From positions 38,264,501 through 38,328,500 of the forward strand of contig CM074860.1 of the NCBI GenBank assembly GCA_037501455.1: 64,000 nt of DNA, in the 5' to 3' direction. Positions within the stretch are counted from its first letter, which is position 1. Each line of letters begins with the position of its first letter. This stretch comes from Lantana camara (taxonomy: Eukaryota; Streptophyta; Magnoliopsida; Lamiales; Verbenaceae). The notes beneath the pieces are model-generated. The model did not search any database. It saw nothing but the letters and a program-made list of their open reading frames with translations, and was not told the origin of the DNA. Made by a program: the position numbers and the translations under genes. Below, one piece after another: positions 4,425 through 64,000 of the stretch.

Positions 4425-4543
4425 ATCCACGGCCGTGGGTTTGAGATCCAGGGTCGTGGATCTGGGTTCCGAAAGTCACAAGTTTCTGTCTTCAAATCCA
4501 CGCCCGTGGATTTCATAAGGCATAAAATCCACGGCCGTGGATT
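4425..4543. repeat. LTR palindrome cluster, type ATCCACGGCCGTGGAT (4 copies)
   Basis: Copies at 4425-4440, 4445-4462, 4494-4513 and 4526-4543. Two are perfect or nearly perfect and two carry central or flank changes (GGGTCG, CGCCCG). It occupies the same slot as the palindrome clusters of the other LTRs, between the first donor-like and first acceptor-like sites. Confidence 0.9.
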
Positions 4544-5484
4544 CGTTCTAGAGGCTAAAAATCACGGAAATAACAAGGGTTTCGCGGGAGAAACACCAAA
4601 ACTCGAAAGAACCACCTCAAACTCGACCCAAATCACATAATACAAGTAATATGCCAAGTAGGAACATCAATAAGCAAGTTTAGAAAACATAATTTCACGA
4701 ACCCACATATATATACACCCCTATACATACACATATACATACACATATACAAACACATATACACCATCCATAAAATCAACCAATGAAATGGATTTTACCG
4801 GAAATGGAACGAGGATGATGAGGTGAGTTCGTGGTGGTCGGGAATCGTCGGATTTCTTGCCGGAGTTGATGGAGTTGGCTTTCCCCTTTCTCTTGTCTTC
4901 TCCCTTCTTTTGAGCTTGAAGTGGAGATGGAAGGGAGGAGGAAGAAAGGAAGATGGTGATGATGGTGAAGTGGTGGTGCCGGAGAGAAGGTGGTGGCCGG
5001 TGGTGGCTAATGGCCGAGGTGGTGGTGGTTCGGTGGTGAAGGGAGAAAAGGAGAAGAATGAAATGAAGAAGAAGAAGAAGTGAGAGGGAGGGTGTGTATA
5101 TCGTGAATCAGGGAGAGGGAGAGAGAGTTGGTGGTTTTTGGGGCCCGTTTAGATATTTGTGTGTGGTCTCGACTCGAATTAAAATACGGTTAGAATAGAA
5201 ATAGGTTCCCGAATTAAATAAAAAGATGGGCAATGTGTTCGGGAATTGACAAGGAATAAAAGGTAAGGCTCGGAGAAAAAGGAATAATCGTGATCGTGTG
5301 TGATATAACAAAACGAACAAACAATTAGTCACGTACTCACGTAATTACAATTAAAAACATGGACACTTAATTAAACACATAAAACACGTAAGTTACATAA
5401 TTAAACAATTAAAACACATTACTCTCGATCTAACCACACTCACGACCTCATACCTGGTTAGTCCCGAAAACACAGGGCGTTACA

Positions 5485-6095
5485 ATTTCCGTTTTCCCTC
5501 AAAATTCTCTCGGAAGTCCCTCAGAATTTGACATAAAATAAATTAGAAAAGAGAAAAAAATCGTGTTTTTAAAGATTCAATTTAATAACATAAAATTTTG
5601 TTAATTAATAAATGAAATAAGAAAAACTTGATATTTTAGAAATATATAAAGGCGAATTCGATTTTAATTTAAAAGAACACAAATATTTACATTGATATCG
5701 TTCAAAATACGAATCGGATGTTTGATTAATAAATGTCAATAAAAAGCAATTATTAATTAAATAACTACCATTAGCTTACTCTTTTCACCAAGAATACATA
5801 TCATCGTCATGGTTATAGTTAAAGTGAATAAATGATTACAATTCTTTAATTCAAAAATAATAAGAATGGCAAATTCCTAGGGAATTTCAAGGGATTTCCG
5901 AGGGAATTTTTCCTCGGAATTTGACATAAAATAAATTTAAAAAAGAGAAAAAAAAATCGTGTTTTTAAAGATTCAATTTAATAACATAAAATTCTGTTAA
6001 TTAATAAATTAAGTATGAAAAACTTGATGTTTTAGAAATATATAAAGGCGAAATTCGATTTTAATTTAAAAGAACACGAACATCTACATTAATAT
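5485..6095. repeat. AT-rich ~400-bp tandem array, segment 1
   Basis: Contains the monomer anchors TATATAAAGGC at 5643 and 6039. Each monomer carries GAGGGAATTTCC and TTTTCCCTCGGAA-type inverted sequences, then an A-rich stretch and a TATATAAAGGCG box. The array is cut on the left by element B and on the right by element D. 6091-6095 (AATAT) is the left target-site duplication of D. Confidence 0.88.
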
Positions 6096-7460
6096 TGTAA
6101 CGCCCCGACTTTTCAGTCGTACAGGTATAACGTATATGTATACCAATTTGAGCGAATTAATTATTTATAAATGTTTTATATATTTAATTTTATTATAAAT
6201 TGTTATTATATTATATTATTTTATTTTATTATATTTTATTTCGTTAATTAGTATATTTAATTTGATAATTAAGTGTTAATGTTAATTAACTATAGCCTTA
6301 ATTATATTATGAATTTTTGTTTACTTTTTATTTATTTAAAAATGGAATTTAAATTTTATTATTTAATTTGAAATGTTATGAAATTGTTAATGTTTTGCGC
6401 ATGAGTGTTTTAATCGTGCTTCGTTCTTATATGATTTGATATCGAAATTTCGTGAAAATTTAGTATGTCGTAGATTTATGTGTTATGAACATGTCTATAT
6501 GCTCGGTTCATGTTTTTGATCTCATTTGACGTGGTAACGAATTTATTTCTAAGTTGTGGAACCAAATCGGGGGCTAAGGGGCAATTAGCGCACCCTTGGT
6601 TCCGTATGTGATATCTTGAGCTCGGGAACTCGGATTCGAGTTCCGTCACCTCCGCTGAACTCGTATTGAAGATTTGGGTTCAATGGAACAAGTCTCATAT
6701 TTTTCTAAGCTCGTTTCGACCTCCAAACTTTAAGCAAAATTTGTGACGTTCGCCTAAATGACCACCTCCCACTATTTTAACCATATCTTAACCAATACTT
6801 AACCAAATTGGGTGAAATTTGGACCCACTTAACCCTCATTTAACCCTTTATCAGACACCATACATTTCATTTCACTTTTCACTTTCAAACTAAGGCAAAC
6901 AGCAGCAGAAACCGAGCCCTCCTCTTGAAGCCAAGAAAACACAATTCATTTCCTCCCTCAAGAGCTCAATACTCTTCCATCTCTTCCCATACTTGAAAGG
7001 TAAGCTTGGAATGTTGTTCTCCATCTTCTCCTCATTCTTTTAAGTGTAATTTGGGTGATTTTCTTGGAGGTTTAACCATGTTATGGATTAATGGATGAAT
7101 AGTTAGGTTAAAAGGGAATTCTTGAATATCTATGATATCATGTAATTTCGTGGTTGTTTTGTAAGGATTTCGTGCAAGTTTTCTTGATCTTAGCTCTTGT
7201 TATTTGCTTCTCCTCGTTGCCTTTGTTGCTGCTGTGATTATCGGATGAAAACAAAGGATTTTTAGCAAGCTTTAAGGCATGAAAATGTTCAGTTTTCTTT
7301 CCTTCCCTTGCTGTCAGTTTTGGGTCAGTTTTATGGGAGTGTTTGTGTTGTTTTGCTGCTAAATTTGCTGCCTTGGAGTGCCTTGTGTGTTGCTGCATAT
7401 TTGCGTTTTTGGAACAGGGGAACGAAGCTGCTCTGTTGCCATTTTTGGGTCTGAGTTAAT

Positions 7461-7590
7461 CTCCCCGGGCGGTGAGAATTCGGTTGAAGAAGTCGCCGGC
7501 CGGGGACTTTGCCATGAAAGCTACTGTAAAATTTTGCCCGTTTCCCCGACCGGGGGAAAAATGAAAAGAAATCTCCCCGGGAGGGGAGAT
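7461..7590. repeat. LTR palindrome cluster, CCCCGG type (element D 5' LTR)
   Basis: Four imperfect palindromes: CTCCCCGGGCGGTGAG (7461-7476), a GCCGGCCGGGG site (7491-7506), TTTCCCCGACCGGGGGAAAA (7541-7560) and ATCTCCCCGGGAGGGGAGAT (7571-7590). The same cluster is present in the 3' LTR at 14991-15119. Confidence 0.85.
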
Positions 7591-14204: not shown

Positions 14205-14990
14205 ATTCAGGTTCAATGGAACAAGCCTCATATTTTTCTAAGCTCGTTTCGACCTCCGAACATTAACCGAAATTTGTGACGTTCGCCTAAATGACCACCT
14301 CCCACTATTTTAACCATATCTTAACAAATACTTAACCAAATTGGGTGAAATTTGGACCCACTTAACCCTAATTTAACCCTTTATTAGCCATACATTTGAT
14401 TTCACTTTTCACTTTCAAACTAAGGCAAACAACAGGAGAAACCAAGCCCCCCTCTTGAAGCCAAGAAAACACAATTCATTTCCTCCCTCAAGAGCTCAAT
14501 ACTCTTCCATCTGTTCCCATACTTGAAAGGTAAGCTTAGAATGTTGTTCTCCATCTTCTCCTCATTCTTTTACGTGTAATTTGGGTGATTTTCTTGGAGG
14601 TTTAAGCATGTTATGGATTAATGGATGAATAGTTAGGTTAAAATTGAATTCTTGAATATCTATGCTATCATGTAATTTCGTGGTTGTTTTGTATGGATTT
14701 CGTGCATGTTTTATTGATCTTAGCTCCTGTTATTTGCTTCTCCTCATTGCCTTTGTTGCTACTGTAATTATCGGATGAAAACAGAGGATTTTTAGCAAGC
14801 TTTAAGGCATGAAAATGTTGAGTTTTCTTTCCTTCCCTTGCTGTCAGTTTTGGGTCAGTTTTATGGGAGTGTTTGTGTTGTTTTGCTGCTAAATTTGCTG
14901 CCTTGGAGTGCCTTGTGTGTTGCTGCATATTTGCGTTTTTGGAACAGGGGAACGAAGCTGCTCTGTTGCCATTTTTGGGTCTGAGTTAAT

Positions 14991-15119
14991 CTCCCCGGGC
15001 GGTGAGAATTCGGTTGAAGAAGTCGCCGGCCGGGGAATTTGCCATGAAAGCTACTGTAAAATTTTGCCCGTTCCCCGACCGGGGGAAAAATGAAAAGAAA
15101 TCTCCCCGGGAGGGGAGAT
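14991..15119. repeat. LTR palindrome cluster, CCCCGG type (element D 3' LTR)
   Basis: Copy of the 7461-7590 cluster with only small changes although the two LTRs have diverged. Confidence 0.85.
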
Positions 15120-18141: not shown

Positions 18142-20785
18142 TATAACGCCCCAAGTTCTAGACGTCCAGGTACGCACGTCACACGTGTGATTTTTGAGAG
18201 TTAGGATTTATTTTAATTCTTTTGCCAATTAAATTCCTATATTTTATGGTAAATGATATGAATTATATTTCAATGTGTCTACGTGAAAATATGTGAAATA
18301 CTTCTTAACTTGAGAATTATTATACATATTCAATTCAATTGTTACATGAATTAAGTGTCCAACTTGTTCTAATTGCTTAATTGTCCTTATGTGATAATTC
18401 TTTTAAATTCGAGGACCAAATTGCATAAATAATTCTTGGACCAAAATGAATGAAATTGTAGGAATGAAACTGGATTGCATGATTTATACTTTGGAGGGAC
18501 TAAATTGCAATTTATGGACTTTCATTAAAACCAAAGAGATGAATCACGTAATATATTTCTTCATTCTTCTTCCATCTTCATTCCATTTCATATCATTTAA
18601 CCATCTTCATCTCTCTCGGTCCAAACTCAAAGAAGAAGAGAAAAGTGGGAATTCACCTTTATCATCATCACCAAGCTATCTTTCATCAAATTAATTACTT
18701 TAAAGCTTGAAGCTTCATCATCTTCACCATCTCTCATCTCTTTCTTTCAAGGTAGGCACGAATATATGATTTCTTGAAATCTATATATAAAGCTAGGGTT
18801 ATGATTTATGGGTAATAACTTGATTATTTGTGGTTAGAAATATAAATACATGCTTCCAACATGATTTTGGTGGTTGAATTTTTGAAATTATGGAATTATA
18901 TGATGAGTTGATATAGGAGCTTGAAGTTGGTGATTAGGATGATCTAGCCATGATATGAGTGTTTATATTAAGCTATATTGTATCTTAAACATGTATAGGT
19001 ATTTCCTTTCATGAATTATAGCATATGGGATTGAATTATAAGTGTTTATGGAGATTTGGTGTTGGATTCGTGCCTCCCCTGTTTTCTGCTCTGTTCTCTG
19101 TATCTTCTACGTAATGGGAACGGCCCTTCCAGTTCCCTTTGTATTTGGGGAACGGCCGTTCCCATGTTTTGAAATATGTGTATGTCGGCGAGAACGGGAA
19201 CGACCGTTCCCACTTTGGCTTATAGCCGGAAACGGCGGTTCCCATTTTCGGGGAGCCGTTTCCGGGAGCTGGGAACGGCCCTTCCCATTTTGAACTAAGG
19301 GATGGAACGGCCGTTCCCAGGTCACTGGAGAGGCAGAAACATTCTGCATAAATTCCAATTTTCCATTTCCTTTTCTTTACCTTTAATTGATCCCAACATG
19401 TTATTATATGATCAATTACATGTCATAACATGATATTTATGTGCTACATTGTTCATTGCACGTTATCTCGTTATGTGATCATGTCGTGCGTCATATTTGG
19501 TACCATTATGGAGTCATGTCTCACGAGTGCACAAATGTTTTCGTTTCTTATCCAGTTCTTCTCCAGGACGGAGATTACTAATCATGAGCACGTTCACGCA
19601 TCCTTGAGTCGTCGTGTCGCCTATCAGGTGAGGTTTAATTTCTAGTTATATAGAACCTATATAACACTTACGTGAGATTTCAGCCCAAAAGGTATTTATA
19701 TCTGTAATTTCCATGATATTACTCATGATTACAAGCAAGCCATGTTCATGAAAAACAAGCAAGCCATGTATCATGCATGTTTTGGCGAGTAAGCATGATT
19801 GTTCACTTTGGGCCCGAGGGTTAGTGTATGAGCCAGCCGGGAAAGCATAAGGCTGACGGGTAACTCTACACTCCCCTCATCATGTGGGATCACCCCTGAA
19901 TCCACCAGGAGATTTAGTGGAGGAAGGAGTTCCGTGCGTGGGAGTCATGTTCCTGACGTACAACATGTCGTGGATGGTGAAGGCTCGTAACCTTCCCATC
20001 ATTGGAGGGAGAAGGAGACTGGGGTCGGGTGCGGCACCGCGGGCTGTCCTCGGGTTATTGCATTGATTTCATTTATTGATTGTACTGATTGAATACACTA
20101 CTGCACTACCGCACTGTAACTGAATTGTATGATCACCTGTTAAATAATAAAGCAAGCACGTATTGTTCACTATTGGTGTAAGGTTGGAGATTTGCCCTCA
20201 CTCGCCGGGCCACGTATTGCATGAAAGTGAATGAAATAAAGTGTTAAATTGAATAGTTGTACTCTCGGGCGAAGGATATTATATTCTTGAACTTATATTA
20301 TTTTCCTTTCTAAAGCTTTACCCGAGAATATAACTTGCATGTTATGTGCGCTAATATTTATTTATACCCCTCACTCAGTCTTCATAGACTGACGCCTCCA
20401 CCTTTCAGGTTCGTGCAGGTACATGCTAGGCGGGAGTCGAGTCAAGTCCAGTCTTGGTAGTCGAGTCATGCATGGTTCATTTATTTATTGTTGCATATGA
20501 TTTATCGTTATTGTTAGCTATTATGTATTTTAGAAATGATAATGTATTGATAGTGAAGATACAATGCTTTCGTGGTTTGAATTGATATTGAACATATTAT
20601 GCTTCCGCTTTATTTTGACGCATGATGAATTAATTATGTGGTTTGGGGGTTAGTCCAGCCTAGCTAGTGTCATTTTTTTATTGTCTCCCGTTCACTATAG
20701 TTTAGTTCATGTATGGGTTGTCCATCTCATATGTGGATTGAGCTATAGTGCGGGGATGTGGCATCTTTACGCTTCGGGTGCTACA
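18142..20785 (+). mobile_element. Solo LTR (element E), 2644 bp, TSD GTATA
   Basis: Begins TATAACGCCCC (the usual TGTAACG with G changed to A), ends GGGTGCTACA, and is flanked by GTATA at 18137-18141 and 20786-20790. No interior or second LTR is present, so it is a product of LTR-LTR recombination. Landmarks: CT-rich leader ending TTTCAAG|GTAGG at 18752; six palindromes 19115-19318; acceptor TTTCTTATCCAG ending 19555; exon-like block 19556-19627 ending ATCAG|GTGAGG; hairpin 1 (20256-20269 with 20321-20334); hairpin 2 (20375-20392); acceptor CCTTTCAG ending 20408. Confidence 0.93.
19115..19318. repeat. LTR palindrome cluster, GGGAACGGCCGTTCCC type (6 copies, element E)
   Basis: Copies at 19115-19131, 19147-19163, 19196-19211, 19228-19243, 19271-19286 and 19304-19318. 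Variation is concentrated in the centre (GGCCC, GACCG, GGCGG) while the GGGAA and TTCCC arms are mostly kept. Confidence 0.93.
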
Positions 20786-24988: not shown

Positions 24989-27855
24989 TGTAACGCCCCG
25001 GTTTTCACTTATAATTTTCATAACATTATATGTATTATATCTTCATGTATTTAGATGAATTTTCATTACCGTGAAATTTATGTAAATTAATTGCTAACGT
25101 GTCTAATTACTATTATGTGACCTTACTTGATCATTTCATAAATATGTGGACTTAATTGCACAACATGATTTGGAGTTAGATGATTAATTGCCATGGAATG
25201 AAACTTGCTTGCATGAATTCAATTATTTCAAGGACTTAGTTGAAAATTTTGATGATTCATCTTGGTTAGTGGAAGATATAATATATCATAGGTATATCTC
25301 TCTCCCACATTTCATTCCATACATTTTCATCATATATACACACACTCACACCCACATATATCGATCCAAACATACCAAGAAGGGAAGGAAGTATTCATCT
25401 CTTTTTCAAGCAAGATTCTTGGAGGATTTATGAAGTTAGAAGCATCATCTTCATCATCTCATCATTTCATCCATTTCTTCTTCCATCTTAAGGTATATGG
25501 AAAATTTGATTGAATCCCTTGAGATATATTTGAGTAGGGTTTGATAAATATGATATGATTCCTTGGGTTATAAGTGCTTAGAAGCATGTTTAGGATCATT
25601 ACATTTCATAACTTGCATGAATTCTTGAATAAGAGGAAAGTTGGTTAACATGATATTTTAGGGGTTTTGAATGATGAATTCTTGATGATTGATGCATGTT
25701 TCATGGTTTATATGCTACCTAATTGATGTCTTTAAGTTATATACATGCTATCTGCTTATTTTGGAGCATTTTGGTTGAGTTTACTTTGGGGTTTCATTCC
25801 TTTTCTTTCTTCCCCGAAGCTACCCCTGTTTCTCCCCTTTTTCCAGCTCTCGAACAGTACCCGGCCGGGTACTTTTTGTGCATAAAAAGTACCCGGGCGG
25901 GTAGTTTTCCCCCTTAAAGCTTCTGTACTGCTTTACCTGGCCGGGGAACTTTTCCCTTGAATTTTACCCGGCCGGGTACTCCCTTATACGAACTCCAAAT
26001 GACCTGATTTTTGATTATTTGGAAAGATCTTGAAGTCTAGAATAACCTCCAATTGGAATCATCTCAATATCTTTTCGCATTTGTGAGTTATGATAAATTC
26101 TTTTTGGTGTCGCTTCTTTACCGACAAACTGCATTCACCCAACTTCAACCGTTCGCCATTTTCTCCTTGCTTTGAACTACAAAACGAGCCATATATCATT
26201 TTAAAGGTATACTTGTCTAGTTTCAGTCCCAACAAACAAAACCCAATTCCAATCTCTAGAACCTTAGATATTTCCCTTTTTCCACAGCTTGGTCATTTTC
26301 AAAAATTGCCAGTTTTTGCCAAACTTCACCAAAACCCTTGTTATTGCGTTCCTTTCACTTTCTTAGCTCCCATATATGACTTATACGAATTATATGCTCA
26401 CTTAATTGATAAGTATGCTCCTACTTGACACTTCTTGGTACTTAATTGCTCAAACGTTATTGGTTGACTTCATGCCTTATATGAATTGAACTTGAAATAA
26501 TTGAATGATATGAATACATGATTTCTTGTTATTAATTTCACCTCTTAGGTGTTATTTGGTGTTTATACATGCTTAGTGTTAATTGATTGCTTGGTTTTAT
26601 TTAAATTACATGAACATTGTCGTGCGTCATACTTGGTCTCATATTGAGTCATGTCTCACGAGTTCCTACTATTCCCTTTCTTGTCCAGTTTTTCTCCAGG
26701 GCGGAGATCATGGATCGTGTGGCATTGTCTTATAGCCTTATCTTGTCCCGTCGCTCGTCAGGTGAGGTTTAAATTCTAGCTACTTAGAACCCATTAAAAC
26801 CCTACGTGTGTTTTCGGCCAAAAGTATATGTATATTTATAGTTTTCAAATCTTATTGATTTACAACGGATTTCATGAATTGAACGGATTGATTGATTGAT
26901 TGATTGAATGTTTTGGCGAGTAACTATTGTTCACATTGGGCCCCGAGGGTACTGTCTTGAGCCAACCGGGGAAGCAAGGGCCGACGGGTAACTCTTGCAC
27001 TACCCTCACCATTGTTGGATCACCTCTGAATCCACCAGGAGGTTTGGTGGAGGAAGAAATCCCGTGCGTGGGAGTCATGTTCCCTACGTACACCATGATT
27101 GGATGGTTGGGTCTTGCAAGCCCGCCATCACCCGGATGAAGAAGGATGTATTGATTGGAATTGCTAATTGTGCACGGAATTGTTTGTGTGATCACCTAAT
27201 CCACTAATAAATTGAAGTATTATACACAGTCAGTGAAAGGTTGGAGATTTGCCCTCACTCGCCGGGCCACAAATTGATTGTATTGAATTGATTGAATTGA
27301 TAAAATGGATTAGTTGTAACCTCGGGCGATATTATCTCTTCTTTTCTAAATCGTGTTGTTATTTTCCAAAATTATTACCCGAGATTATAACTTGCATGTA
27401 TGTGCGTAAATATTTATTTATACCCCTCGCTCAGTCCGTGTTGGACTGACACCTCAACCTTTCAGTTTTTGCAGGTTCGTGCAGGGCGGGAATTAGAGTC
27501 TAGCCTGTCTTTTATTCGGGTCTAGCACTTCACCTTCATATTTTAGCTCATGTATTGATACTTCTTATATTTTGTATTATGCCTTACCTAACGTTGGAGG
27601 TGATATTATATTGTATGAAATGTTGGTATCTATTAATAAATATGTAAATATGGTACCTATAAGCATTAAATGTTATTGCTTCCGCTTTTATTGATACAAT
27701 TGTTTAGTGGTATTATTTGAGGGTACCCGCCTAGCTTTTGAGTTTTTATTGTCTCCCCGTTCGCTATAGTTTCGGTTCATGTATGAATTGCCCGTTTTAT
27801 ACGTGGATTGAGGCTATAGTGCGGGGGATGTGGCGCCTAGCGTTCCGGGTGCTAC
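24989..27855 (+). mobile_element. Solo LTR nested in the LTR of element F, 2867 bp, TSD TCTAG
   Basis: Runs from TGTAACGCCCCGG to GGGTGCTACA with TCTAG on both sides (24984-24988 and 27856-27860). Landmarks: leader ending TTAAG|GTATATG at 25493; palindromes 25856-25978; acceptor CTTTCTTGTCCAG ending 26688; exon-like block 26689-26761 ending GTCAG|GTGAGG; TATA-rich stretch near 26830; hairpin 1 (27313-27326 with 27378-27391); hairpin 2 (27431-27449); acceptor TTTTTGCAG ending 27474. It is close to the minus-strand LTR 30462-33193, so the two form an inverted pair. Confidence 0.93.
25856..25978. repeat. LTR palindrome cluster, AGTACCCGGCCGGGTACT type (4 copies)
   Basis: Copies at 25856-25873 (perfect), 25888-25905, 25933-25948 and 25965-25978 (perfect 14-bp core). 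Confidence 0.92.
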
Positions 27856-32152: not shown

Positions 32153-32275
32153 GTACCCAGCCGGGTAAAATTGAAGGGAAAAGTTCCCCGACCGGGTAAA
32201 GCTGTCCAGAAGCTTTCGGCACAAAACTACCAGCCCGGGTACTTTTCATGCACAAAAAGTACCCGGCCGGGTACT
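32153..32275. repeat. LTR palindrome cluster, AGTACCCGGCCGGGTACT type (element H)
   Basis: Copies at 32153-32168, 32184-32199, 32226-32243 and 32258-32275. It is the same palindrome type as the solo LTR at 24989-27855, with slightly more decay. Confidence 0.92.
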
Positions 32276-35794: not shown

Positions 35795-35796
35795 AT

Positions 35797-40409: not shown

Positions 40410-40639
40410 CCTGAAATCAAGTCACTATTATGCGTGTTCGATTAGTCAATGCCAATGTGTGCAAATAATTCACAGATTGCACATAAATTCAGAAATTTAA
40501 CAAGTCACCCCAAAATCAAATAAGTCAGGTAGGTTCAAGTGTCAAATAACAATGCAAGACTCTCAAATTGACAGTTAGTTCCTATGCCGTGCGACCTAGA
40601 CTCACAAGACACGACACTAGAGACCCGGTTTTGCAACCG

Positions 40640-42061: not shown

Positions 42062-42285
42062 GGGAACGGCCGTTCCGGCCTTCCCTTGAAAATGGAAAGG
42101 GCCGTTCCCATGGCTCAGAAAACGCGCGCCAGCGTTTTTAAATTTAAAACGCGTTTTGGCTGGGAAGGGCCGTTCCGGCTCGCAGGCCAAAGTGGGAACG
42201 GCCGTTCCCAGTCTCGCTGGCCTAGTCTCAGCATCATGGGAACGGCCGTTCCAGTTTTGAACTGGGGTTGGGAAGGGCCGTTCCC
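42062..42285. repeat. LTR palindrome cluster, GGGAACGGCCGTTCCC type (element I 5' LTR)
   Basis: Same six copies as 34634-34857. The LTR differences noticed here (GGGAAGGG vs GGAAAGGG left arm; GGGGCTGGG vs GGGGTTGGG) are single changes. Confidence 0.93.
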
Positions 42286-43222
42286 AGAATACGTGAGCAA
42301 AAGAATGCAGAGCAGAAACAGAGCAGCCATGGCAATCACAACAAATAACCACAAAAATGGCTTCAAGCCAAGTTTAAATGCAAATATAAGATGCACTAAA
42401 TATGCTAACATACATTTTGATCAATAACAATTCATAAAAACACTTGACTCCATGTTAGATCATCAATAATTCATCATTTGAAACCCATATATTCATTCAT
42501 GCTCCAAGTTCATAAAACTCAAGATAAATGCATCAAACTTGAGCTCAAAGCTCACATACATATTTCCAACACTCAATACACAATATAACCAATGTATAAC
42601 AAAGCCCTAGATATACCATTTATACAAGAAAATCATCCATTCTCCATAATTACCTCAAGAGAAAGAAATGGAAGAAGAGATGATGAAGTGATGTTGATGA
42701 TGCTTGTATGATCACAAAACCCACAATTATTAACTTGAATGGATGAAATCTCCTCTCATCAAAGTGAGGGTTTTGATCGGTTGAAATGGGAAGCAAGAAC
42801 AAGGAAGAAATGTTTGTATGAATGAGAAAGAGATGCTACGTGATGTTTGATCAAGAAGGAGAAAAGATGGCCAAATTTTGCTATTAAATCCTTTCACTTA
42901 ATAAGTTATACAATCAAGTCCAATTCCAATATTAAATGATCAATATGGTCCAATTCAATTAGATCCCATATGCATGAAAATGAACAATTAAGGACATAAA
43001 AGAAATGAATCACATTCGGGAAAATAAATCACATTGCAATCACGTTCAATAAATCCGAAAAATATAATATGATATGAATTTTCAATAAAATGTTAAGAAT
43101 ATAATTTTATAAAATTAATGTCATGCTATGGAAATTAAAGAAATGAACAATTAAAATAAAATATATCCCTCAAACGCACACGTGTCGTTCATACCTGAAT
43201 TGCCGAAAGCTGGGGCGTTACA

Positions 43223-43922: not shown

Positions 43923-46908
43923 TGTAACGCCCGAGCGCGAGACGTCACATCCCCCGCACCATGACCCGACCCGTATACGAAATGGATTTCCATACACGTG
44001 CCGAATCATAGAGGACGGAGACATACACACTCGCTAAGCCAGGCGGGACTAACCTATAACTTAAACCCCAACAACAACAACCACAACAATCAGAGCAAAG
44101 GAAACGCGGAAGCAATCCTTCATATATTATATATTGAGCTAGAGCTCTAGGTACCAACATGTATTCCATATATGTTGAGCTATACGCTCTATGTACCAAT
44201 AATTCGAGTAAGATACATATAGGTACCATATTCATGTACGCTCCATACATACAAAATCCAAAAATGAAATCAAATGCGTGTGAAGGAAAGGCTAGACACT
44301 ATGCAAGACTCTCCTCCCGACTCGCATCCCGCCTAGCATCCCCCTTCCTGCAAAAACAACTGAAACAACTTCGGGTTCAGTCTTAGATAGACTGGTGGGT
44401 ATAAAAAGAGGCATAATATCATAATATTTTGGAATTTAAACACGTACATGCAAGTTATAATCCTTATTCGAGGTTTAGAACCCTTTTTCCCCAAGTGGGA
44501 GTAAATAAGATACAACAAATAGGATTATAACGATTCATTTCCTTCATTAGGTCATTAGTAGCCCGGCGAGAGGGCGTGCATCATCTCCAACCACCACCTC
44601 GTGTAATTCATTAATCTTTCATTCATACATTCATTCATGCATACATTCTTTCGTGCACATTCATTAGATCATTCATTCGATCATACATATACTCCTTTTT
44701 CCTCTGGGTAGGGAACGGGTTTGCAAGGCCCGAACCCTCATTCATTAATGCTAGAGGAGTACATGAATCCCCAAAAGCGCGGGTCCCCTTTCATTCACTA
44801 ATCTCCTAGTGAAATCTAGGTTGCCGAAATTGTTGGAACTAGTATAAATGGATTCCCGTCAGCCCAAGCTTCCCCGGTTCACCACTACACTAAGTCCCGG
44901 GCCCCCATTCATTGTGATCACACATTCATTACTCGCCAAAACATTTTGGTAGGATAGTCAAGAAAATGGCTTTCGTTTGAAACATTGTTCGTTGAAAACT
45001 CGCTATAAATACATATATAGGGTTTTGGCCAAAATCTTGCACATTAGGTGTTCGGGGTCATATTGTTATCTAATAGAAGAAAAACCCACCTGGTCGACAA
45101 AAGAACCCGACACAACTCTCACTGCTCGCCCACGGCACCCACCGGACCAAGACCTGTGTGACAAAGGTAGTGTGAGACTCTATTATGACCACATTAGACG
45201 CTCGGCTATGCAATAACATGTTAAGGAATGCTTAAAATGCGATAATATGTTCAATTTATGATCATGAATGTCATAGAATCCAATTAAACACATAATTCAA
45301 CAAGTTTCGTTCATTATACGATAAAACCGTATTCAATCTCGATCACATCGTTCATACTTTCATTCATAAGGTTATCAATATCATAAATCAATCATAAAAC
45401 ATAGCTTTAATACACTCACGTTGCATACAATTCACAAATACGAGCAATAAACGCAACACAAGCAATAAAAGAGTTCCCCCAAAGCTGCCATTTCAAATGA
45501 CACGGCCGTGTTGAGTTTTCAAAGGAAACGGACATGGCCGTGACCGAGGTTTAAAATCCAAAAATTCAAAGTCGAGAGCTTGACACGGCCGTGTTGAGTT
45601 TTTAAAGCATTTGGACACGGCCGTGTGCGGGGTTAAATTCAGAAAAATTCAAAGTCGATAGCCCAGCACGGCCGTGTCCATATTCAGTTCAAAGCTGACA
45701 CGGCCGTGTCAGCTCGTCGTCTTCACAAGAGAAACAGAGCATAAGCTCTGTTTCTTCGAGGGAAAAGCTTGAAAAACAGGGCAGCAACAAGGAAGCTCAT
45801 ATATTACCCTTAGACATGTTTTTAATTCATATAATTCACATATATCATGTAATCCAATCATTTATACAAGAATTCACACCCAAAGTTGGCAAAAGATCAC
45901 TCAAAACCAAGCTATTCATCCATGGAAGCTTCAAGCTCCATTAATGGCAAATCATGTAATACATAACCAAGATGAAATCCAAGCATACAAAAATGATGAG
46001 GAAGTTACAAGCAACACGTTTCATGTATCATCTAACACTTAAAACCAAGGAAAGACATGTAACCAAGAATTTATACCATATAATTCATTTCAAGCTATTT
46101 TCTCATAACACATGATTCCCCAACTCAAATCAAGATACAATCGGGAGAAAATAGAGAGGAGAAGGAGAGAAAAACAATCCATACCTTACCTTGGAAGAAG
46201 ATTGGATGAAGGTTGATCTTGAGCTCAAAGTGTGGATGATCAAAACAAGGGTTTCTTTGGAGCTTTCTCTTGGTCTCTTGAGATGATGATTTGATCGATC
46301 AACAATGGAACAAGGGAGGAGGAAAAATGCTGATTTTTAGTGCTAATACTAGTAGGATTCGGGTCGGTTCAAGTCCGGTTTGTTTAGTAAACGGTTCAAA
46401 CAAGTTATAAGAAACAAGGTTAAGGAAAAGTTCGATGTCGGAGGTTCAAATGGTATCGAAAAAGTATAAGGTCAAGTTTAATGGATAGGTATCGTCGAGA
46501 CAAGCTCAACGCCGGGTACGGATCTCGATTTCGAGGTCCGGAGCTCAAGATATCGCGAAAACCGTTTAGGGTTACCTATATACAAATAGGTCCCTAAACT
46601 TTCAAAAAGTGGCAATTAAGCCCAAACTCAATTTCCAATTGAGTCCAAAACATTCAAATAAGTTACAATCAAGCCCACGGATTACACGAAACATATAATT
46701 CCATTCACTTAACACCGAATTCATGAAATTCACATTCTCACGTATTCATTCATATAATCATAACTCAATTTAGAATTCATATAAAATTTAAACCATTGAA
46801 TCAAATTAGAAACGAATTCAATTAGTAAAACAAAATATAAAATCATATAATTAAATGCAAATGCGCACGTAACTCTTACCTGCACGTGTGAAAACACGGG
46901 GCATTACA
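43923..46908 (-). mobile_element. 3' LTR of element J (minus strand, 2986 bp)
   Basis: Runs on + from TGTAACGCCCGAG to GGGGCATTACA followed by a CT-rich PPT complement. Minus-strand landmarks: donor CCAAG|GTAAGG at 46189; palindromes 45713 to 45499; acceptor TTTGTCACACAG at 45154; exon-like block 45153-45090 ending ACCAG|GTGGG; TATA-rich 45020-45003; hairpin 1 (44531-44519 with 44468-44454); hairpin 2 (44394-44378); acceptor TTTTTGCAG at 44348. Confidence 0.9.
45499..45713. repeat. LTR palindrome cluster, GACACGGCCGTGTC type (6 copies, element J)
   Basis: Copies at 45499-45512, 45531-45545, 45582-45595, 45614-45628, 45665-45680 and 45694-45713. The last is a perfect 20-bp palindrome, GCTGACACGGCCGTGTCAGC. 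Confidence 0.93.
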
Positions 46909-50344: not shown

Positions 50345-52946
50345 TGTAGCACCCCGGACACGTGGAGGTACCACACCCCCCGCACTATAGGCCGATCCAT
50401 ATACGAAATGGACAATCCGTACATGAACTAGCCTATAGCGAACGGGTGACAAAAGAAGAAAAGACGAGCTAGGCGGGACTAAACCCCAAAGCAATACCAA
50501 ACCAATGCATAATAATTAAAAGCGGAAGCATTAATTCATATAGATACATATAGGTACCATATTTATCAGATAGATACGTATAGATACCAAACTAATTATC
50601 AATACATTATCATCTTTATACATGATCAAGTATTCAAAATGTGCTAACAATAGACATGACATGAGAAGTAGTAAAGTATATACATGATGGTGCACTGCTA
50701 GACTCGTGACAATGCAAGACTGGACCAGACTCCCGCCTAGCACGACCGGCTCTCTAGTACCTGAAAAGTGAAGTATCAGTCTACCGAAGACTGAGTGAGG
50801 GGCATAAATAGATATAGCGCAATCACATGCAAGTTATAACCTCGGGTAAGGTTTTATAATTAAAAGTAATATAAGTTTGCAATAATATAAACTCGCCCGA
50901 GATTACAACTACCAGTATTAAGTACTTGTTCATTTCCATGCAATCAATCAATACATGGCCCCGGCGAGTAAGGGCGGTCTCCAACCGATCTCCCAATGAA
51001 CATGAACATGCTTGCTTGTTTAATAGTCAATAGGTGATCATGCAATTCACTTATCGTGCAATCGTGCGATAGTGTAATCATATAGCACATTCATGAAGTG
51101 ACAGTCATGCAATAACCCGAGGCGCATCCGTGGTGCTGGACTCGTCCCCAGTCTCCTTTTCCCTCCGGTTTGATGAAGGGATTGCAAGGCCCCAACATCC
51201 AATCTCATTGAGCAGAGGGTACATGAATCCCTAAGCCCGGAGCTCCTTCCTCCACTAATCTCCTAGTGGATTCAGGGGTGACCCCTAATCATGGTGAGGA
51301 TAGCGCCAGAGTTACCCGTCAGCCCTTGCTTTCCCGGTTGGCTCTAGTCACTACCCTCGGGCCCAAACCGTCATGCTACTCGCCTAACATGCATGAAACA
51401 ATACCTGACTTGCTTGCTTGCTTGCTTACTTGAACCTGGCTTGAAATGATCAATGATTTATAGAAAATATAACCGTAAATACTATTTTGGCCAAAATATC
51501 ACATAAGGGTTATACGGGTGCTATGTAACTAACAATGAAACCTCACCTATACCGACCCAGACAAGTAGGCACGGCCTACGGGGCTTGCTCCTCGTCCCTA
51601 CCCTCGTGACCTGTGCAAACACGACACTTATACATGAGACATGACCTAAAATGCCCAAAAAGTGACGAACGGCGGAAATGTATCGAGATGACCACGAAAA
51701 TGCAATGTGGTATGATAACATGTTGTTTCACATTATAATAGCACATATTACAGCAATTCGGGGTCAAAGAAGTCGTTGGATCGAGGGGCTAAAAATGTAA
51801 TTTTATGCAGTCACATTTGTTCTGTCAGCGAGGTGGGAACGGCCGTTCCGAGGTGCCTTTGTAAATGGGAACGGTCGTTCCCATTCCTCCCAAAAACGTT
51901 CCAACGTTTTCCCCTTTTAAAATGCGCGCAAGCTGGGAACGGCCCTTCCGGCTCAAGGCCAAAATGGGAACGGCCGTTCCCATGCTCGGCCGCCCAAACC
52001 ATTTAAAAAGGTGGGAACGCCCGTTCCCACAATGCCTTGAGGCTGGGAACGGCCGTTCCCTGTTTCTGCAAATATGAAGAACAGAGAAAAAACAGGGGAA
52101 GGCTACGGGAAAGAGCAACAAAGCTACAACAATCCAATTTTGATCCCCAAAATGCTATTATTTCTAACACTTCTCATGCACATATATTCATAAGATGATA
52201 ATCAATCCTTTAAACACATAAAACATGGAAATCCATCAAGAATTCAAAGTTTGAAGCATATGATCCAACTTGATCATTCATACCAATATTCAATAATTCA
52301 AGCTAGAAATCATGCAATAATTCGAGAGATGATCCCCTAATCATGCTTCCAACTACACATAATCCATCTAGCATATAAATCCCAAACCCTAGTTCAATCA
52401 TATATGCTCAAGAATCAAGAGTTCATGCACAACCAACCTTGGAAATGAAATGAAGAAAGAAGAAGATGAAGATGGATAATTTAGAGCTTAAAAGCTTGAA
52501 GCCTCTTGAGCAAACTTGATGATGATGAATCTCTTCTTCCCCTCTTTTCCACGTGAAGAACCGAGAGCAAGAAGGTGGATATGTTGATGAATTTGGAAGC
52601 AAATGATCAAGGAAGCATATAACGTGATATTTGGGAAAATATGTAATATTTGCAATTGAACCCTCCAAGTTATTTAAGTTAAACAATTAAGGATATCAAG
52701 TTTGAAAAGTGATCAATTGAGTCCTCAAAGGTTTCATGCAATTGGGTCCCTAAATTTAAAAGAATGCACATATAGGGCCAAGTTGACAATTAAATCATTT
52801 TCGGTAATTAATTCACGAAATAAACATTTTCAAGTTTTGAGATAAGTTATAAGTTTAATATGAATTTCATGAAAATATTATAAAATTTTAATTTATAAAA
52901 TTATTTTAGACATAAAATATTAATAAATGAAAATCGGGGCGTTACA
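50345..52946 (-). mobile_element. 3' LTR of element K (2602 bp)
   Basis: Minus-strand landmarks: donor-like CCAAG|GTTGG at 52437; palindromes 52060 to 51835; acceptor GTTTGCACAG at 51611; exon-like block 51610-51547 ending TATAG|GTGAGG; hairpin 1 (50909-50896 with 50846-50833); hairpin 2 (50794-50776); acceptor CTTTTCAG at 50761. It interrupts the gag-protease region of element J. Confidence 0.93.
51835..52060. repeat. LTR palindrome cluster, GGGAACGGCCGTTCCC type (6 copies, element K 3' LTR)
   Basis: Copies at 51835-51849, 51867-51882, 51935-51949, 51966-51981, 52013-52028 and 52045-52060. Confidence 0.93.
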
Positions 52947-52962: not shown

Positions 52963-53015
52963 AAGGACCTGGTCCCCAGGTCCACTGTCAAGTTTTAAAA
53001 CGATGCACAACATAC

Positions 53016-56383: not shown

Positions 56384-56396
56384 GGCTCTGATACCA
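56384..56396 (-). other. Primer-binding site, element K
   Basis: The + strand GGCTCTGATACCA is the complement of TGGTATCAGAGCC, 7 nt from the LTR. Confidence 0.95.
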
Positions 56397-56403
56397 CCTT
56401 AGA

Positions 56404-59006
56404 TGTAGCACCACGGACACGTGGAGGTACCACACCCCCCGCACTATAGGCCGATCCATATACGAAATGGACAATCCGTACATGAACTAGCCTATAGCGA
56501 ACGGGTGACAAAAGAAGAAAAGACGAGCTAGGCGGGACTAAACCCCAAAGCAATACCAAACCAATGCATAATAATTAAAAGCGGAAGCATTAATTCATAT
56601 AGATACATATAGGTACCATATTTATCAGATAGATACGTATAGATACCAAACTAATTATCAATACATTATCATCTTTATACATGATCAAGTATTCAAAATG
56701 TGCTAACAATAGACATGACATGAGAAGTAGTAAAGTATATACATGATGGTGCACTGCTAGACTCGTGACAATGCAAGACTGGACCAGACTCCCGCCTAGC
56801 ACGACCGGCTCTCTAGTACCTGAAAAGTGAAGTATCAGTCTACCGAAGACTGAGTGAGGGGCATAAATAGATATAGCGCAATCACATGCAAGTTATAACC
56901 TCGGGTAAGGTTTTATAATTAAAAGTAATATAAGTTTGCAATAATATAAACTCGCCCGAGATTACAACTACCAGTATTAAGTACTTGTTCATTTCCATGC
57001 AATCAATCAATACATGGCCCCGGCGAGTAAGGGCGGTCTCCAACCGATCTCCCAATGAACATGAACATGCTTGCTTGTTTAATAGTCAATAGGTGATCAT
57101 GCAATTCACTTATCGTGCAATCGTGCGATAGTGTAATCATATAGCACATTCATGAAGTGACAGTCATGCAATAACCCGAGGCGCATCCGTGGTGCCGGAC
57201 TCGTCCCCAGTCTCCTTTTCCCTCCGGTTTGATGAAGGGATTGCAAGGCCCCAACATCCAATCTCATTGAGCAGAGGGTACATGAATCCCTAAGCCCGGA
57301 GCTCCTTCCTCCACTAATCTCCTAGTGGATTCAGGGGTGACCCCTAATCATGGTGAGGATAGCGCCAGAGTTACCCGTCAGCCCTTGCTTTCCCGGTTGG
57401 CTCTAGTCACTACCCTCGGGCCCAAACCGTCATGCTACTCGCCTAACATGCATGAAACAATACCTGACTTGCTTGCTTGCTTGCTTACTTGAACCTGGCT
57501 TGAAATGATCAATGATTTATAGAAAATATAACCGTAAATACTATTTTGGCCAAAATATCACATAAGGGTTATACGGGTGCTATGTAACTAACAATGAAAC
57601 CTCACCTATACCGACCCAGACAAGTAGGCACGGCCTACGGGGCTTGTTCCTCGTCCCTACCCTCGTGACCTGTGCAAACACGACACTTATACATGAGACA
57701 TGACCTAAAATGCCCAAAAAGTGACGAACGGCGGAAATGTATCGAGATGACCACGAAAATGCAATGTGGTATGATAACATGTTGTTTCACATTATAATAG
57801 CACATATTACAGCAATTCGGGGTCAAAGAAGTCGTTGGATCGAGGGGCTAAAAATGTAATTTTATGCAGTCACATTTGTTCTGTCAGCGAGGTGGGAACG
57901 GCCGTTCCGAGGTGCCTTTGTAAATGGGAACGGTCGTTCCCATTCCTCCCAAAAACATTCCAGCGTTTTCCCCTTTTAAAATGCGCGCAAGCTGGGAACG
58001 GCCCTTCCGGCTCAAGGCCAAAATGGGAACGGCCGTTCCCATGCTCGGCCGCCCAAACCATTTGAAAAGGTGGGAACGCCCCGTTCCCACAATGCCTTGA
58101 GGCTGGGAACGGCCGTTCCCTGTTTCTGCAAATATGAAGAACAGAGAAAAAACAGGGGAAGGCTACGGGAAAGAGCAACAAAGCTACAACAATCCAATTT
58201 TGATCCCCAAAATGCTATTATTTCTAACACTTCTCATGCACATATATTCATAAGATGATAATCAATCCTTTAAACACATAAAACATGGAAATCCATCAAG
58301 AATTCAAAGTTTGAAGCATATGATCCAACTTGATCATTCATACCAATATTCAATAATTCAAGCTAGAAATCATGCAATAATTCGAGAGATGATCCCCTAA
58401 TCATGCTTCCAACTACACATAATCCATCTAGCATATAAATCCCAAACCCTAGTTCAATCATATATGCTCAAGAATCAAGAGTTCATGCACAACCAACCTT
58501 GGAAATGAAATGAAGAAAGAAGAAGATGAAGATGGATAATTTAGAGCTTAAAAGCTTGAAGCCTCTTGAGCAAACTTGATGATGATGAATCTCTTCTTCC
58601 CCTCTTTTCCACGTGAAGAACCGAGAGCAAGAAGGTGGATATGTTGATGAATTTGGAAGCAAATGATCAAGGAAGCATATAACGTGATATTTGGGAAAAT
58701 ATGTAATATTTGCAATTGAACCCTCCAAGTTATTTAAGTTAAACAATTAAGGATATCAAGTTTGAAAAGTGATCAATTGAGTCCTCAAAGGTTTCATGCA
58801 ATTGGGTCCCTAAATTTAAAAGAATGCACATATAGGGCCAAGTTGACAATTAAATCATTTTCGGTAATTAATTCACGAAATAAACATTTTCAAGTTTTGA
58901 GATAAGTTATAAGTTTAATATGAATTTCATGAAAATATTATAAAATTTTAATTTATAAAATTATTTTAGACATAAAATATTAATAAATGAAAATCGGGGC
59001 GTTACA
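56404..59006 (-). mobile_element. 5' LTR of element K (2603 bp)
   Basis: Offset 6059 from the 3' LTR and almost identical. Landmarks: donor-like site 58496; palindromes 58120 to 57894; exon-like block 57669-57606; hairpin 1 (56968-56955 with 56905-56892); hairpin 2 (56853-56835). It has one extra C in the fifth palindrome (GGGAACGCCCCGTTCCC). Confidence 0.93.
57894..58120. repeat. LTR palindrome cluster, GGGAACGGCCGTTCCC type (element K 5' LTR)
   Basis: Same six copies as 51835-52060 with one inserted C and nearby substitutions. Confidence 0.93.
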
Positions 59007-61119: not shown

Positions 61120-61161
61120 GTTTGATTTCAAGCGTGCTTTGAATCCGAGGACGGATTCTTT

Positions 61162-61176
61162 TTAAGGGGGAGAGAT
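61162..61176 (+). other. 3' polypurine tract, element L
   Basis: TTAAGGGGGAGAGAT directly precedes TGTAACGCCCCC of the LTR. Confidence 0.9.
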
Positions 61177-64000
61177 TGTAACGCCCCCGTTTTTCAGTTT
61201 ATAACAATGTGACGTATTTGTTTATAAATTGCTCGATTTAATTAGTTAATTATATGATTTATTGTTTATAAACGTTTATATTTGATTCAAACCATAAACT
61301 ATTTCTATTTTAATTTAATTCATTTTATTTTACTTTGATAATTGGTGTTTAATTTCTTAATTGAGGTTTCACGTACCTTAACTGCTTCGGTAATTTCGTT
61401 AATTAATTTCAACATGTTATTAGTTGGTTTTAATTTAATTAATGTGGAATTTAGGTTTAGTAAATTATTTATAACAATATTAATTCGTTCATGCGCATGA
61501 GTGTTCTATTTGTGCTTCGTTCATATGTGTATTGATATCGGATTGGTATGAAAATTCAGTATGTCGTAAATATATGTGTTATGAACATGCCTACGTGCTC
61601 GGTTTATGTTTTCAGATTTATTTGACGTGTTTATGAATTTAATTTCGATTGTGGAACCAAATCGGGGGCTAACGAGCAATTAGCGCACCCTTGGTTCCGA
61701 GCGTGATATCTTGAGCTCGGGAATTCGGATTCGAATTCCGTCAACTCCGTTGCCTTCGTATCGACGATTCGGAGACAATGGAACAAGCCTCATACCTTTT
61801 TGAAATCATTAAGACCTCCGAAATCCAACCGTAACGGACAACTCGTGCAGGAAGAGCCCTTATGTTGACTAGTCTTCATGGTGGGACCCCATAACCCCTC
61901 TTAACTTAACCATACCTTAACCATGACTTACCTACCTTGAGTTAACTCCTTCCTCTCCCTTTTAGCTGCTAAAACCGAGCCAAAATATCTCCTCTCTTTC
62001 TGCAACTGATCGAGAGAAGGGAGAAGAGGAGAAAGGAAGAAACCTTGGCCATCCTTTGTGATTTTGAGCTCAAATCACCATCTTTCTTCACCAAATCTTT
62101 AAGGTATGAATATTTATGTCTTCTCTACTCAATTATGTTTGATTTCATCTATTTAAAACATGATTTGGATCAGATTTGATTAGGGTTTGAATTATGAGAT
62201 TAGTATGAACTTTTAGGGATTTTTGTCCTAGTGACCTATTTACTTGTGTGGCTGAATTCCTTGCTTAAACATGATCATATGAACTTGGTTCTTGGCTTAT
62301 TTATTTCCTAACTGATAGTATATGATGTTAGGAGGATTTCTTCTCTTGCTCCTTTTATAAAATTTTGAGTTATGGAGCTCCAAACTTGGTGATCAAACTA
62401 TTTTCCCCTGTTTTCGAACTGCTGTGTGAAATTTGGTGTTGTTGCATGATCATATGGCCTCCATTTCGTGTGAAAATGCATGGAGTTGATGTACACTTAT
62501 TGTTATATATGTTAGCATTCATGCTTTAAGTATTTGGTTCCATTTGAAGCCTCAAAACCGAAATACATGGCCTGTTTCTATGCATGCACCATGACAGATT
62601 TGTTGCTGTTGTGTTTGGTAAGTTGTTGGTCATCCTAATGTGCTTTAAATTGTACCATTTTCTATATATATGATGTATATTAGTTGTTTGGTATGTTAGC
62701 ATGCATTCCCCAAAGTTTCAGATCCAAATTCAAGCCCTAAGTACTTGATCAAGGCATGATAGAATCATTAGGGCTCATATGTCCGATTGTAGCGACCCAG
62801 TTTTGTTTCACGGTTTCGATGATCTTAACGTGTGATTTAGCTTTTGCAATCTAAATGAAAAATGTTCATAACATGCCAAATATGCTGCATATTAAGTTTC
62901 AGAGCATTTGGAGTTCATTTGATATGCTTTTGGATTGAGTTTGTAAGGGATCAGCTTTGCCGGAAAAACCTTGTAAACGGTTTTGGTTCTGTACCGTGAC
63001 ACCCCCGTGTCACATTTACTCATAAGAGTGAGACACGGGCGTGTCACACCCTCTGCTAAGTTCTGTACTGAGCCACGCCCGTGGCTCAGTTTGGCTAAGG
63101 GAGGTGACACCCCCGTGTCACTTCCCATGCGCAGTCTTCGTTACTTCCTCTTCGGTTTTTGAATTGTTTCACCTCCTTAATGACTTTATCTCCCTTTATG
63201 TTGAACTATGAACTTGTTGTACTATGTGTTAAGAGTATTTTGGTTTAATTTCATGGCATTTGGATGTGCTATAGGCATGCTTTTACTTAATGCCGGTTAT
63301 GGGTGTTTATGTGTCGTTTATGAATCGCCTCGCTTATTTTCTATATCTTATCACTTCTTCTTGTTGCCCAACCTTGAATATATGCTATGTTATGTAATAT
63401 GAAGTATATGGTAACATTATGGACGAGCTTGAACATGTTCTGTGCCCTTATTTGGATTCTTGAATTATTGGATTGGAAGTATGAATTGAAGGATCTATGA
63501 TTAAACAAGTGAATGAATTGGTTATATGATTTTCATGACTTAATATGATCTTTATGCCTTCATATCATGCTTGAGCATTGCCGTGCGTCATATATGGTTC
63601 ATTTAGAGTCTTGAGTCTCACGAACACGTCTTGTGGTCTTTTGTACAGTTTGTCTCCAGGGTGGAGAGCTTTTGATCGTTCAAGCACTTGATAACTCGTT
63701 CCTTGTTTCATCACGGTTAAGGTGAGGGTGTTTTCGTTTTAGCTATGTAATAAACCCTACAATCCTTATGTGAAAAGCTTTGGCCAAAAACCTTATGATT
63801 ATATATATATATGGTTTTCAAATGACGTTATCGAGTAAATTCTTCTGAATTATACGTATAAGCGTGTATAAGCTTAAAAATGGTTTTGTAATGAGGCTAT
63901 GCTCCAAACCGTGTGTCTTCATGCTAGCTATGGATTAGGATGACACGGAGAGGTACGTATATAGCATATGCCGAATTACACGGTAAGGTATGATTTCTTA
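61177..64000 (+). mobile_element. 3' LTR of element L, cut by window end
   Basis: Starts TGTAACGCCCCCG. Landmarks: AT-rich start; CT-rich leader ending TTTAAG|GTATGA at 62104; palindromes 62996-63121; acceptor TTTTGTACAG ending 63648; exon-like block 63649-63721 ending TTAAG|GTGAGG; TATA-rich stretch about 63797-63815. The hairpin module and 3' end lie beyond the window. Confidence 0.88.
62996..63121. repeat. LTR palindrome cluster, GTGACAC/CGTGTCAC type (4 copies, element L)
   Basis: Copies at 62996-63013, 63028-63049, 63067-63090 and 63104-63121. Centres are CCCC, GGGC or GCCC rather than a perfect GGCC. The third has a different arm (ACTGAGCCACG facing CGTGGCTCAGT, 24 bp in all). Confidence 0.9.

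Follow-up and report, generated by a model that had tools for sequence, protein, structure and literature searches.

Paired palindromes in the long terminal repeats of Ty3/gypsy retrotransposons of Lantana camara as candidate sites for dimeric factors

The locus and its palindrome clusters

The window analysed here is a stretch of 64,000 nucleotides of Lantana camara DNA (assembly GCA_037501455.1, contig CM074860.1, positions 38,264,501 to 38,328,500, numbered below from its first letter) from a genome of 1.27 Gb, and it contains nested long terminal repeat (LTR) retrotransposons together with a tandem repeat of about 402 bp. The LTRs start with TGTAACGCCC or a near variant, are 2.6-3.8 kb long when complete, and carry clusters of short palindromes. 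All 12 clusters sit within LTRs of retrotransposons related to one Ty3/gypsy element of the window, element F. An initial annotation, made from the sequence alone, had already located these clusters, and each of its 12 positions was confirmed, being off by at most one or two bases. The clusters and element F are as follows.

4424..4543, minus strand: cluster of LTR A, 4 units, arms ATCCAC/GTGGAT, centre spacings 31, 50 and 21 bp
7460..7589, plus strand: cluster of the 5' copy of LTR B, 4 units, CTCCCC/GGGGAG with differing outer bases, spacings 31, 50.5 and 30.5 bp
14990..15118, plus strand: cluster of the 3' copy of LTR B, counterpart of 7460-7589
19115..19319, plus strand: cluster of LTR C, 6 units, GGGAAC/GTTCCC, spacings 32, 48, 32, 43 and 32 bp
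25856..25980, plus strand: cluster of LTR D, 4 units, GTACCC/GGGTAC, spacings 32, 44 and 31 bp
32152..32275, minus strand: cluster of LTR E, 4 units, GTACCC/GGGTAC, spacings 32, 43 and 31 bp
33233-43222, minus strand: element F, with LTRs at 33233-35794 and 40661-43222
34633..34858, minus strand: cluster of the 3' copy of LTR F, 6 units, GGGAAC/GTTCCC, spacings 32, 44, 32, 68 and 32 bp
35829..40421, minus strand: open gag-pol frame of element F, 1530 aa, which assigns F to Ty3/gypsy
42061..42286, minus strand: cluster of the 5' copy of LTR F, counterpart of 34633-34858
45497..45712, minus strand: cluster of LTR G, 6 units, GACAC/GTGTC, spacings 32, 51, 32, 51 and 32 bp
51834..52061, minus strand: cluster of the 3' copy of LTR H, 6 units, GGGAAC/GTTCCC, spacings 32, 47, 31, 68 and 32 bp
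57893..58121, minus strand: cluster of the 5' copy of LTR H, counterpart of 51834-52061
62996..63121, plus strand: cluster of LTR I, 4 units, GTGACAC/GTGTCAC, with GAGCCAC/GTGGCTC in unit 3, spacings 34, 40 and 34 bp

The Pol region of element F comprises a Ty3-type protease, reverse transcriptase, RNase H and integrase, with further matches to RVP_2 and a Tf2-1-like SH3 domain, and its best match among solved structures is Ty3 Gag-Pol; it is of Ty3 type and not that of a Ty1/copia Sirevirus. A protein search yielded 38 matches, the majority of them plant polyproteins. The element may be a plant chromovirus of the Tekay-like kind, its chromodomain match being weak (20.2 bits, below the Pfam cut-off of 25.1). 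Apart from gag-pol, no open reading frame (ORF) was found in F by a search limited to unspliced ORFs of at least 200 aa. Counts given below for the window cover 44 units, checked by hand, in nine non-redundant LTRs (A-I); for B, F and H the second LTR copy was excluded.

Structure and symmetry of the units

Each unit consists of arms of 6-9 bp flanking a GC centre of 4 bp, and each LTR has four or six units. The centre is GGCC in 27 of the 44 units, forming a CGG-CCG core; its clearest exception is CCCC in I, and unit 2 has a GGGC centre in A, D, E, H and I. Many units are only near-palindromes, pairing between the arms being complete at position 2 (100%) and lower at positions 1 (77%), 6 (66%), 7 (59%) and 9 (32%). 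The earlier statement that changes fall mainly in the centre holds loosely: the centre and pair position 1 vary, but the outer arm positions vary as well.

Over 43 units (38 distinct, one with a 5-nt centre excluded), 81.6% of the arm cells were paired, against 52.1% after shuffling and 16-45% in slid registers, which is not an unbiased test because the units had been selected for pairing. The covariation score of the same set was 0.645, compared with 0.180 for shuffled arms and at most 0.265 for slid registers. When the window was scanned with a covariance model built from 21 of the 22 unit pairs, leaving out the 21-bp pair of A, 58 matches at E<=1 were obtained on either strand, and all of them lie inside the 12 clusters.

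That palindromy is kept unit by unit, as the initial annotation proposed, was borne out at 20 loci elsewhere in the genome. These loci (L076-L095) were located by the pattern CGGCCG-N25..28-CGGCCG and picked among 50 places listed for variety of arm type, with one arm per unit visible and never both; close relatives (L076/L083, L084/L085) are included. Their 23 CGGCCG pairs offer 276 arm positions for comparison (positions 2-7), of which 194 matched within the unit and 161 across the pair; a sign-flip test gave p=0.0003, with 14 pairs for, 3 against and 6 ties. Restricted to positions 2-5, the counts were 152/184 and 140/184 (p=0.016). In the window itself (22 pairs) the result was borderline, with 286 matches within units and 269 across pairs over positions 1-9 (p=0.06) and 164 versus 163 over positions 2-5; when right arms were exchanged between all the units of an LTR, p was 0.58 at positions 2-5 and 0.008 at positions 6-9. 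Arm-swap tests on L076-L095 yielded 235/324 against 213.8 expected for the 54 clustered cores (p=0.0004) and 279/378 against 251.9 for all 63 cores, which include some outside clusters. We prefer the 23-pair test to the arm-swap tests, and unit-by-unit palindromy rests on it. In 200 kb sampled by position (20 stretches inside the first 18 Mb of C1-C4), 18 CGGCCG cores were found, with palindromes at those in L031 and L033, and the control core GCCGGC showed no palindromy (17/60, 15.9 expected).

Paired arrangement of the units

A feature overlooked in the initial annotation is that the units are paired. Their centres lie 30.5-34 bp apart within 21 of 22 pairs, the remaining pair measuring 21 bp, and all 13 distances between pairs are 40-68 bp, each LTR carrying two or three pairs. 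The motifs are abundant: one 16-bp palindrome has 15,128 exact copies in the genome (reversed control: 0), the palindrome of LTR A occurs 1,105 times, and CGGCCG pairs with centres 31-34 bp apart number 11,546, as against 69 for the reversed control. A hand count of the first 50 places listed for such pairs placed 5 at 31, 34 at 32, 9 at 33 and 2 at 34 bp. The total of 11,546 covers the distances 31-34 bp, and the fixed spacing rests on 44 loci chosen by one exact unit, 42 of which have a spacing of 31-33 bp.

Twenty-four of these loci carry GGGAACGGCCGTTCCC; they come from the first places listed, apparent second LTRs of an element having been skipped, and L012/L013, L014/L015 and L042/L043 are probably LTR mates nonetheless. 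Their 93 spacings below 100 bp fall at 26 (1), 31-33 (58), 38-44 (16), 47-49 (10) and 67-70 (8), and every locus has at least one of 31-33. The other 20 are of type A and come from the top of the list for ATCCACGGCCGTGGAT; their 54 spacings fall at 20-21 (9), 31-32 (25), 40 (2), 50-51 (16), 71 (1) and 82 (1), with a 31-32 spacing at 18 loci. The 200 kb sampled by position held three clusters, with spacings of 47 and 32, of 32, 79, 32 and 42, and of 34 and 78 bp. Strict helical phasing of all units found no support in a spacing-period test.

In the pairs of C, F and H, the 5' arm of unit 2 is off-type at position 6 or further in in seven of nine cases, and its 3' arm TTCCC is intact in nine of nine; the pairs therefore seem to be directional.

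Arm types and their turnover

Within a type, arms are conserved at 86-96% and spacers at 49-85%. Comparisons among C, F and H revealed 72-76 of 84 arm positions and 20-22 of 24 centre positions identical, against 47/93, 47/95 and 63/117 for the spacers, and D and E share 54 of 56 arm positions and 44 of 52 spacer positions. Between types, in contrast, the arms differ in all units. A tree of the LTRs with the clusters removed shows two clades, in which B joins I (98/98) with G beside them, and B carries CTCCCC arms although its neighbours I and G carry TGACAC. Five arm types occur among the nine LTRs, G and I counted as one, and GTCGC, GTAGC, GTCCC and ATCCC arms were seen elsewhere in the genome. 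Arm comparison and tree together bear out the proposal that types differ between lineages and are homogeneous within an LTR, but they do not support the nine independent lineages once counted. Likewise, copies in one LTR are generally of the same type, except that I has GAGCCAC among its GTGACAC-like units and B has three outer-arm versions.

All four A units carry ATCCAC-like arms where the D and E units have GTACCC-like ones, and the centres are identical at 12/12 and 11/12 positions; a further 20 arm columns of D/E lie opposite non-unit sequence of A, 9 of them identical. The downstream flank is 73-78% identical, and it is only against this flank that the arms are more changed. As the arms are no more changed than the spacers, the switch is marked by the whole-set difference between the A units and the D/E units.

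Such homogeneity could arise by mutation without selection, if template switching during reverse transcription (quasi-palindrome correction) perfected the palindromes and copied arms between units and the elements tolerated the outcome. This process would account for arms common to all units of an LTR, for symmetry within units of differing arms and for symmetry at the DNA level without wobble, but it leaves the similar place of the cluster in the LTR, the 31-34-bp pairing and the conservation of arms far above spacers in diverged lineages unexplained, and we consider it distinctly unlikely.

Position within the LTR

In a splice-site scan each LTR has a donor-like and an acceptor-like site, and the clusters start 262-899 bp past the best predicted donor; the order donor-cluster-acceptor is built into the scan, because the search for donors was confined to the sequence ahead of the cluster and that for acceptors to the sequence behind it. 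The splice sites are predictions with hand-set weights, and the best donor is weak in A and H. In the contig L002, CTATAAATA lies about 160 bp ahead of the donor-like site (by eye), and the cluster therefore probably lies in a leader intron. Judging from these predicted sites, the clusters are probably situated downstream of the promoter, in that intron. In several LTRs, TATA-like words precede the donor-like site and also follow the cluster.

A cluster is not present in every LTR of this type, as had been supposed, since the LTRs of L001, L002 and L007 lack one; in L001 and L007 the LTR sequence extends only about 450-520 bp beyond the donor-like site (by eye). The covariance model gave no match at E<=1 in L001-L010 and one in L011 (E=0.61). 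L001-L005 and L007 are contigs in bacterial genome assemblies coding for relatives of plant Ty3/gypsy polyproteins, apparently contamination of these assemblies. Relatives were also sought in viral contigs, and none was confirmed there.

Cluster GC content is 0.48-0.60. A methylation platform, in which dense CG and CCG/CGG symmetric sites would attract or repel methyl-readers with the arms being secondary, would fit a motif such as CGGCCG, each cytosine of which is in CG or CHG context, and the observed/expected CpG ratio of 0.67-1.29 in clusters compared with 0.65-0.93 in the remaining LTR. It requires neither palindromic arms reaching 9 bp nor lineage-specific ones, and in lineage I the ratio of the cluster (0.67) is below that of the rest of its LTR (0.85); we consider this explanation very unlikely.

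Level of the symmetry: DNA or RNA

Selection for folding of the sense RNA should favour G.U over A.C mismatches. Among unpaired transitions on the sense strand, the window showed 4 G.U and 16 A.C over the first seven pairs of the 44 units (2 and 8 over the first six pairs), the GGGAACGGCCGTTCCC loci 4 and 4 (59 oriented among 120 units), and the type-A loci 2 and 7 (32 oriented among 74 units). With no G.U enrichment in the units, the symmetry looks to be DNA-level, and we hold with moderate confidence, on these base counts, that it lies at that level. The wobble-tolerant covariation of RNA hairpin signals was not found in the LTR units.

The alternative is that the units fold as hairpins in the leader or intron RNA, any unit being able to pair with any other, and serve dimerisation or packaging of the genomic RNA, splicing or the production of small RNAs. 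Several observations point this way: self-complementarity within units exceeds that across the pair at the 20 loci; self and cross pairing are equal in the window pairs (91.4% over the inner five positions); the predicted place is between donor and acceptor, an order built into the scan; and the within-pair spacers have 24 G.U against 16.3 after shuffling (p=0.015). In predicted folding, 110-nt windows of the clusters average -32 to -50 kcal/mol, compared with -18 to -23 in the remaining LTR sequence, and every one of the nine clusters includes a window below -40, a threshold described as pre-miRNA-like (PMC10760457); windows below -40 are also present outside the cluster in eight of the nine LTRs. 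The same source cites a small-RNA excess at Sirevirus palindromes (Martin et al. 2023, PMC10760457), which is second-hand support. RNA hairpins, however, do not predict a fixed spacing, the arm sequence itself is fixed beyond pairing where 46-50% of spacer positions are changed, and the units show no G.U excess in three samples, unlike hairpins in internal arrays of the same elements (described below). On balance we regard the RNA reading as unlikely.

A long composite hairpin formed by a whole pair was considered and rejected: the spacer is weakly self-complementary (43 Watson-Crick pairs, 33.1 shuffled, p=0.027), the structure can be made out clearly by eye solely in the first pair of A, D, E and I, and cross pairing in the window equals self pairing. 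A coding origin was likewise discarded, stops interrupting most of 48 frames over eight clusters; some frames are open in B, C and F, and the one from F that was searched had no protein relative at E<=10. No known RNA family reached the gathering threshold among the clusters.

Comparison with described motif arrays

The behaviour of the clusters had been thought to be without a described precedent among LTRs, but repeated motifs of Sirevirus LTRs behave in a similar way. In 13 Sireviruses, which are Ty1/copia elements, palindromic and element-specific repeated motifs have been reported, with a CGG-CCG core in 12 of the 13; they cluster in the upper LTR, ahead of the TATA box, are commonly more than 85% identical within an element and present in at least eight copies per element, recur in the internal linker where an element has an ENV gene, and were called Sirevirus-specific relative to the classic elements compared (Bousios et al. 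2010, PMC2829016). Maize Ty3 elements are described as generally without an obvious structured peak (Martin et al. 2023, PMC10760457). The clusters of our window share with the Sirevirus motifs their palindromy, their many copies per LTR, a place in the upper part of the LTR, near-identity within an element and difference between elements (I and B being the exceptions), and the CGG-CCG core. Unlike them, they are carried by Ty3/gypsy elements, are predicted to lie downstream of the promoter, number 4-6 per LTR, and form pairs 31-34 bp apart, pairing being unmentioned in the Sirevirus motif account (PMC2829016). Over both LTRs the units add up to 8-12; the Sirevirus count covers 3' LTR plus linker. 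By analogy, the Ty3/gypsy clusters may be a counterpart of the Sirevirus motifs. Element-specific palindromes are thus already known from Sireviruses, as far as described in these sources; the Ty3/gypsy carriers and the pair spacing are added here. A literature search for palindromes in such LTRs turned up the Sirevirus description and, as far as the result lists show, none for Ty3/gypsy; a search with the motifs as words gave 14 papers, of which the 12 listed look unrelated, judged by title.

To our knowledge, the nearest family-specific motif array with a known reader is that of the VANC motifs in VANDAL DNA transposons, which encode the reader of these arrays themselves; the VANC21 motif is YAGTATTAY, in single orientation and often in tandem repeats (PMC5735166). 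As in VANDALs, clusters of short family-specific motifs in non-coding DNA evolve together (PMC5735166), but no reader gene was found in element F among ORFs of at least 200 aa.

Retroviral packaging and dimerisation signals lie close to the 5' end of the genomic RNA, past a donor, and consist of self-complementary motifs. Self-complementarity is common to both; the LTR units differ in lacking wobble-tolerant covariation, in being several per LTR and in their fixed spacing. Cotton intergenic DNA may be rich in ACACGGCCGTGT-like words.

Interpretation

The clusters are arrays of two-fold symmetric elements that, on sequence evidence, would act in cis in the LTR, most likely as paired sites for dimeric DNA-binding factors, a reading to which we give a probability of about 0.47. 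Each unit would be bound by a dimeric sequence-specific factor, and the working module would consist of two units about three helical turns apart, or two turns in one group of type-A copies. Two or three modules would make up the array of an LTR, probably in the leader intron downstream of the promoter, with lineage specificity set by the arm sequence. Occasionally all units of one LTR would acquire new arms, and template switching between units in reverse transcription could spread such arms and repair their symmetry.

Several points weigh against sites for dimeric factors. Besides the G.U excess in the within-pair spacers, the G.U and A.C counts of the units are not independent, because homologous units are included. 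Different self-complementary arms stand in one cluster in I (unit 3), B, L084 and L093, and such unit-wise symmetry fits self-pairing better, as a dimer of single specificity does not need it. Between A and D/E, arms are identical at 21 of 35 positions, spacers at 22-23 of 50 and the upstream flank at 48-53%. Length is also preserved to within 1 bp by 66-79% of ordinary 32-bp windows in aligned LTRs (62-93% close to the cluster), so any single pairwise spacing comparison is weak and the strength lies in the agreement among lineages. Spacings between pairs show no phasing at 10.5 bp in the GGGAAC type (R=0.18, n=34), type A fits best to a period of 9.9 rather than 10.5, and the 20-21-bp pairs may trace to one event. 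Finally, one genome holds five or more arm types, and no known factor was identified for them.

A bolder extension, which we consider rather unlikely, is that the paired palindromes form a lineage address, a DNA code of dyad pairs three turns apart by which a co-evolving dimer of the element or the host would choose the LTRs that are activated or protected from silencing; autonomous and non-autonomous partner elements would share a code, and template switching would change codes wholesale. If so, Ty1/copia and Ty3/gypsy would each have evolved such a code on their own. The presence of short, lineage-specific palindromes built on a CGG-CCG core in two plant LTR retrotransposon superfamilies suggests a requirement shared by LTRs in plant nuclei. 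Thanks to the fixed pairing and the clear-cut arm types, what was a loosely described palindrome-rich region becomes a set of definite sites for which a reader can be looked for. With 15,128 exact copies of one palindrome in a single genome there is enough material to measure birth, copying and loss of sites, making the paired palindromes a good test bed for the recognition of such elements.

Further observations

Element H (52947-56403) has a gag-like region with 38-39% identity to the gag of F and no pol match between its LTRs; it is apparently non-autonomous and has the palindrome type of F.

Arrays of 3-6 GAGAGA-CGGGGT-TCTCTC hairpins, 27-30 bp apart, lie at 13228-13373, 43270-43328, 53027-53138 and 60962-61104, a short way ahead of the polypurine tract that precedes LTRs B3, E, H3 and I, that of E being split off by the insertion of F. 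The 3' LTRs of F and G are instead preceded by pol, and no such array was seen over the 320 bp leading up to them. Unlike the LTR units, the arrays show 4 G.U and no A.C over 17 units with a six-nt loop, and four pairs carry double changes against 0.4 after shuffling (15 of the 17 units used, 12 distinct). With compensated stems, G.U-only wobbles and a conserved loop, they appear RNA-like.

A further hairpin with a lineage-variable stem and a purine loop (AGGA, GGGA or GGA) directly precedes the polypurine tract in all ten elements examined. Its positions are as follows.

13409, 33212, 35812, 46927, 52965 and 61141: polypurine-tract hairpins in the window
L001:4084, L002:5551, L004:3318 and L007:2037: polypurine-tract hairpins in the contigs

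The stems are paired at 66 of 70 positions (43.7 shuffled), or at 49 of 49 (31.2 shuffled) with close relatives collapsed, and the copy at B3 is decayed (4 of 7 pairs). The satellite-like repeat of about 402 bp occupies 17291-18141 and 20786-23049, beside or around several of the LTR elements.

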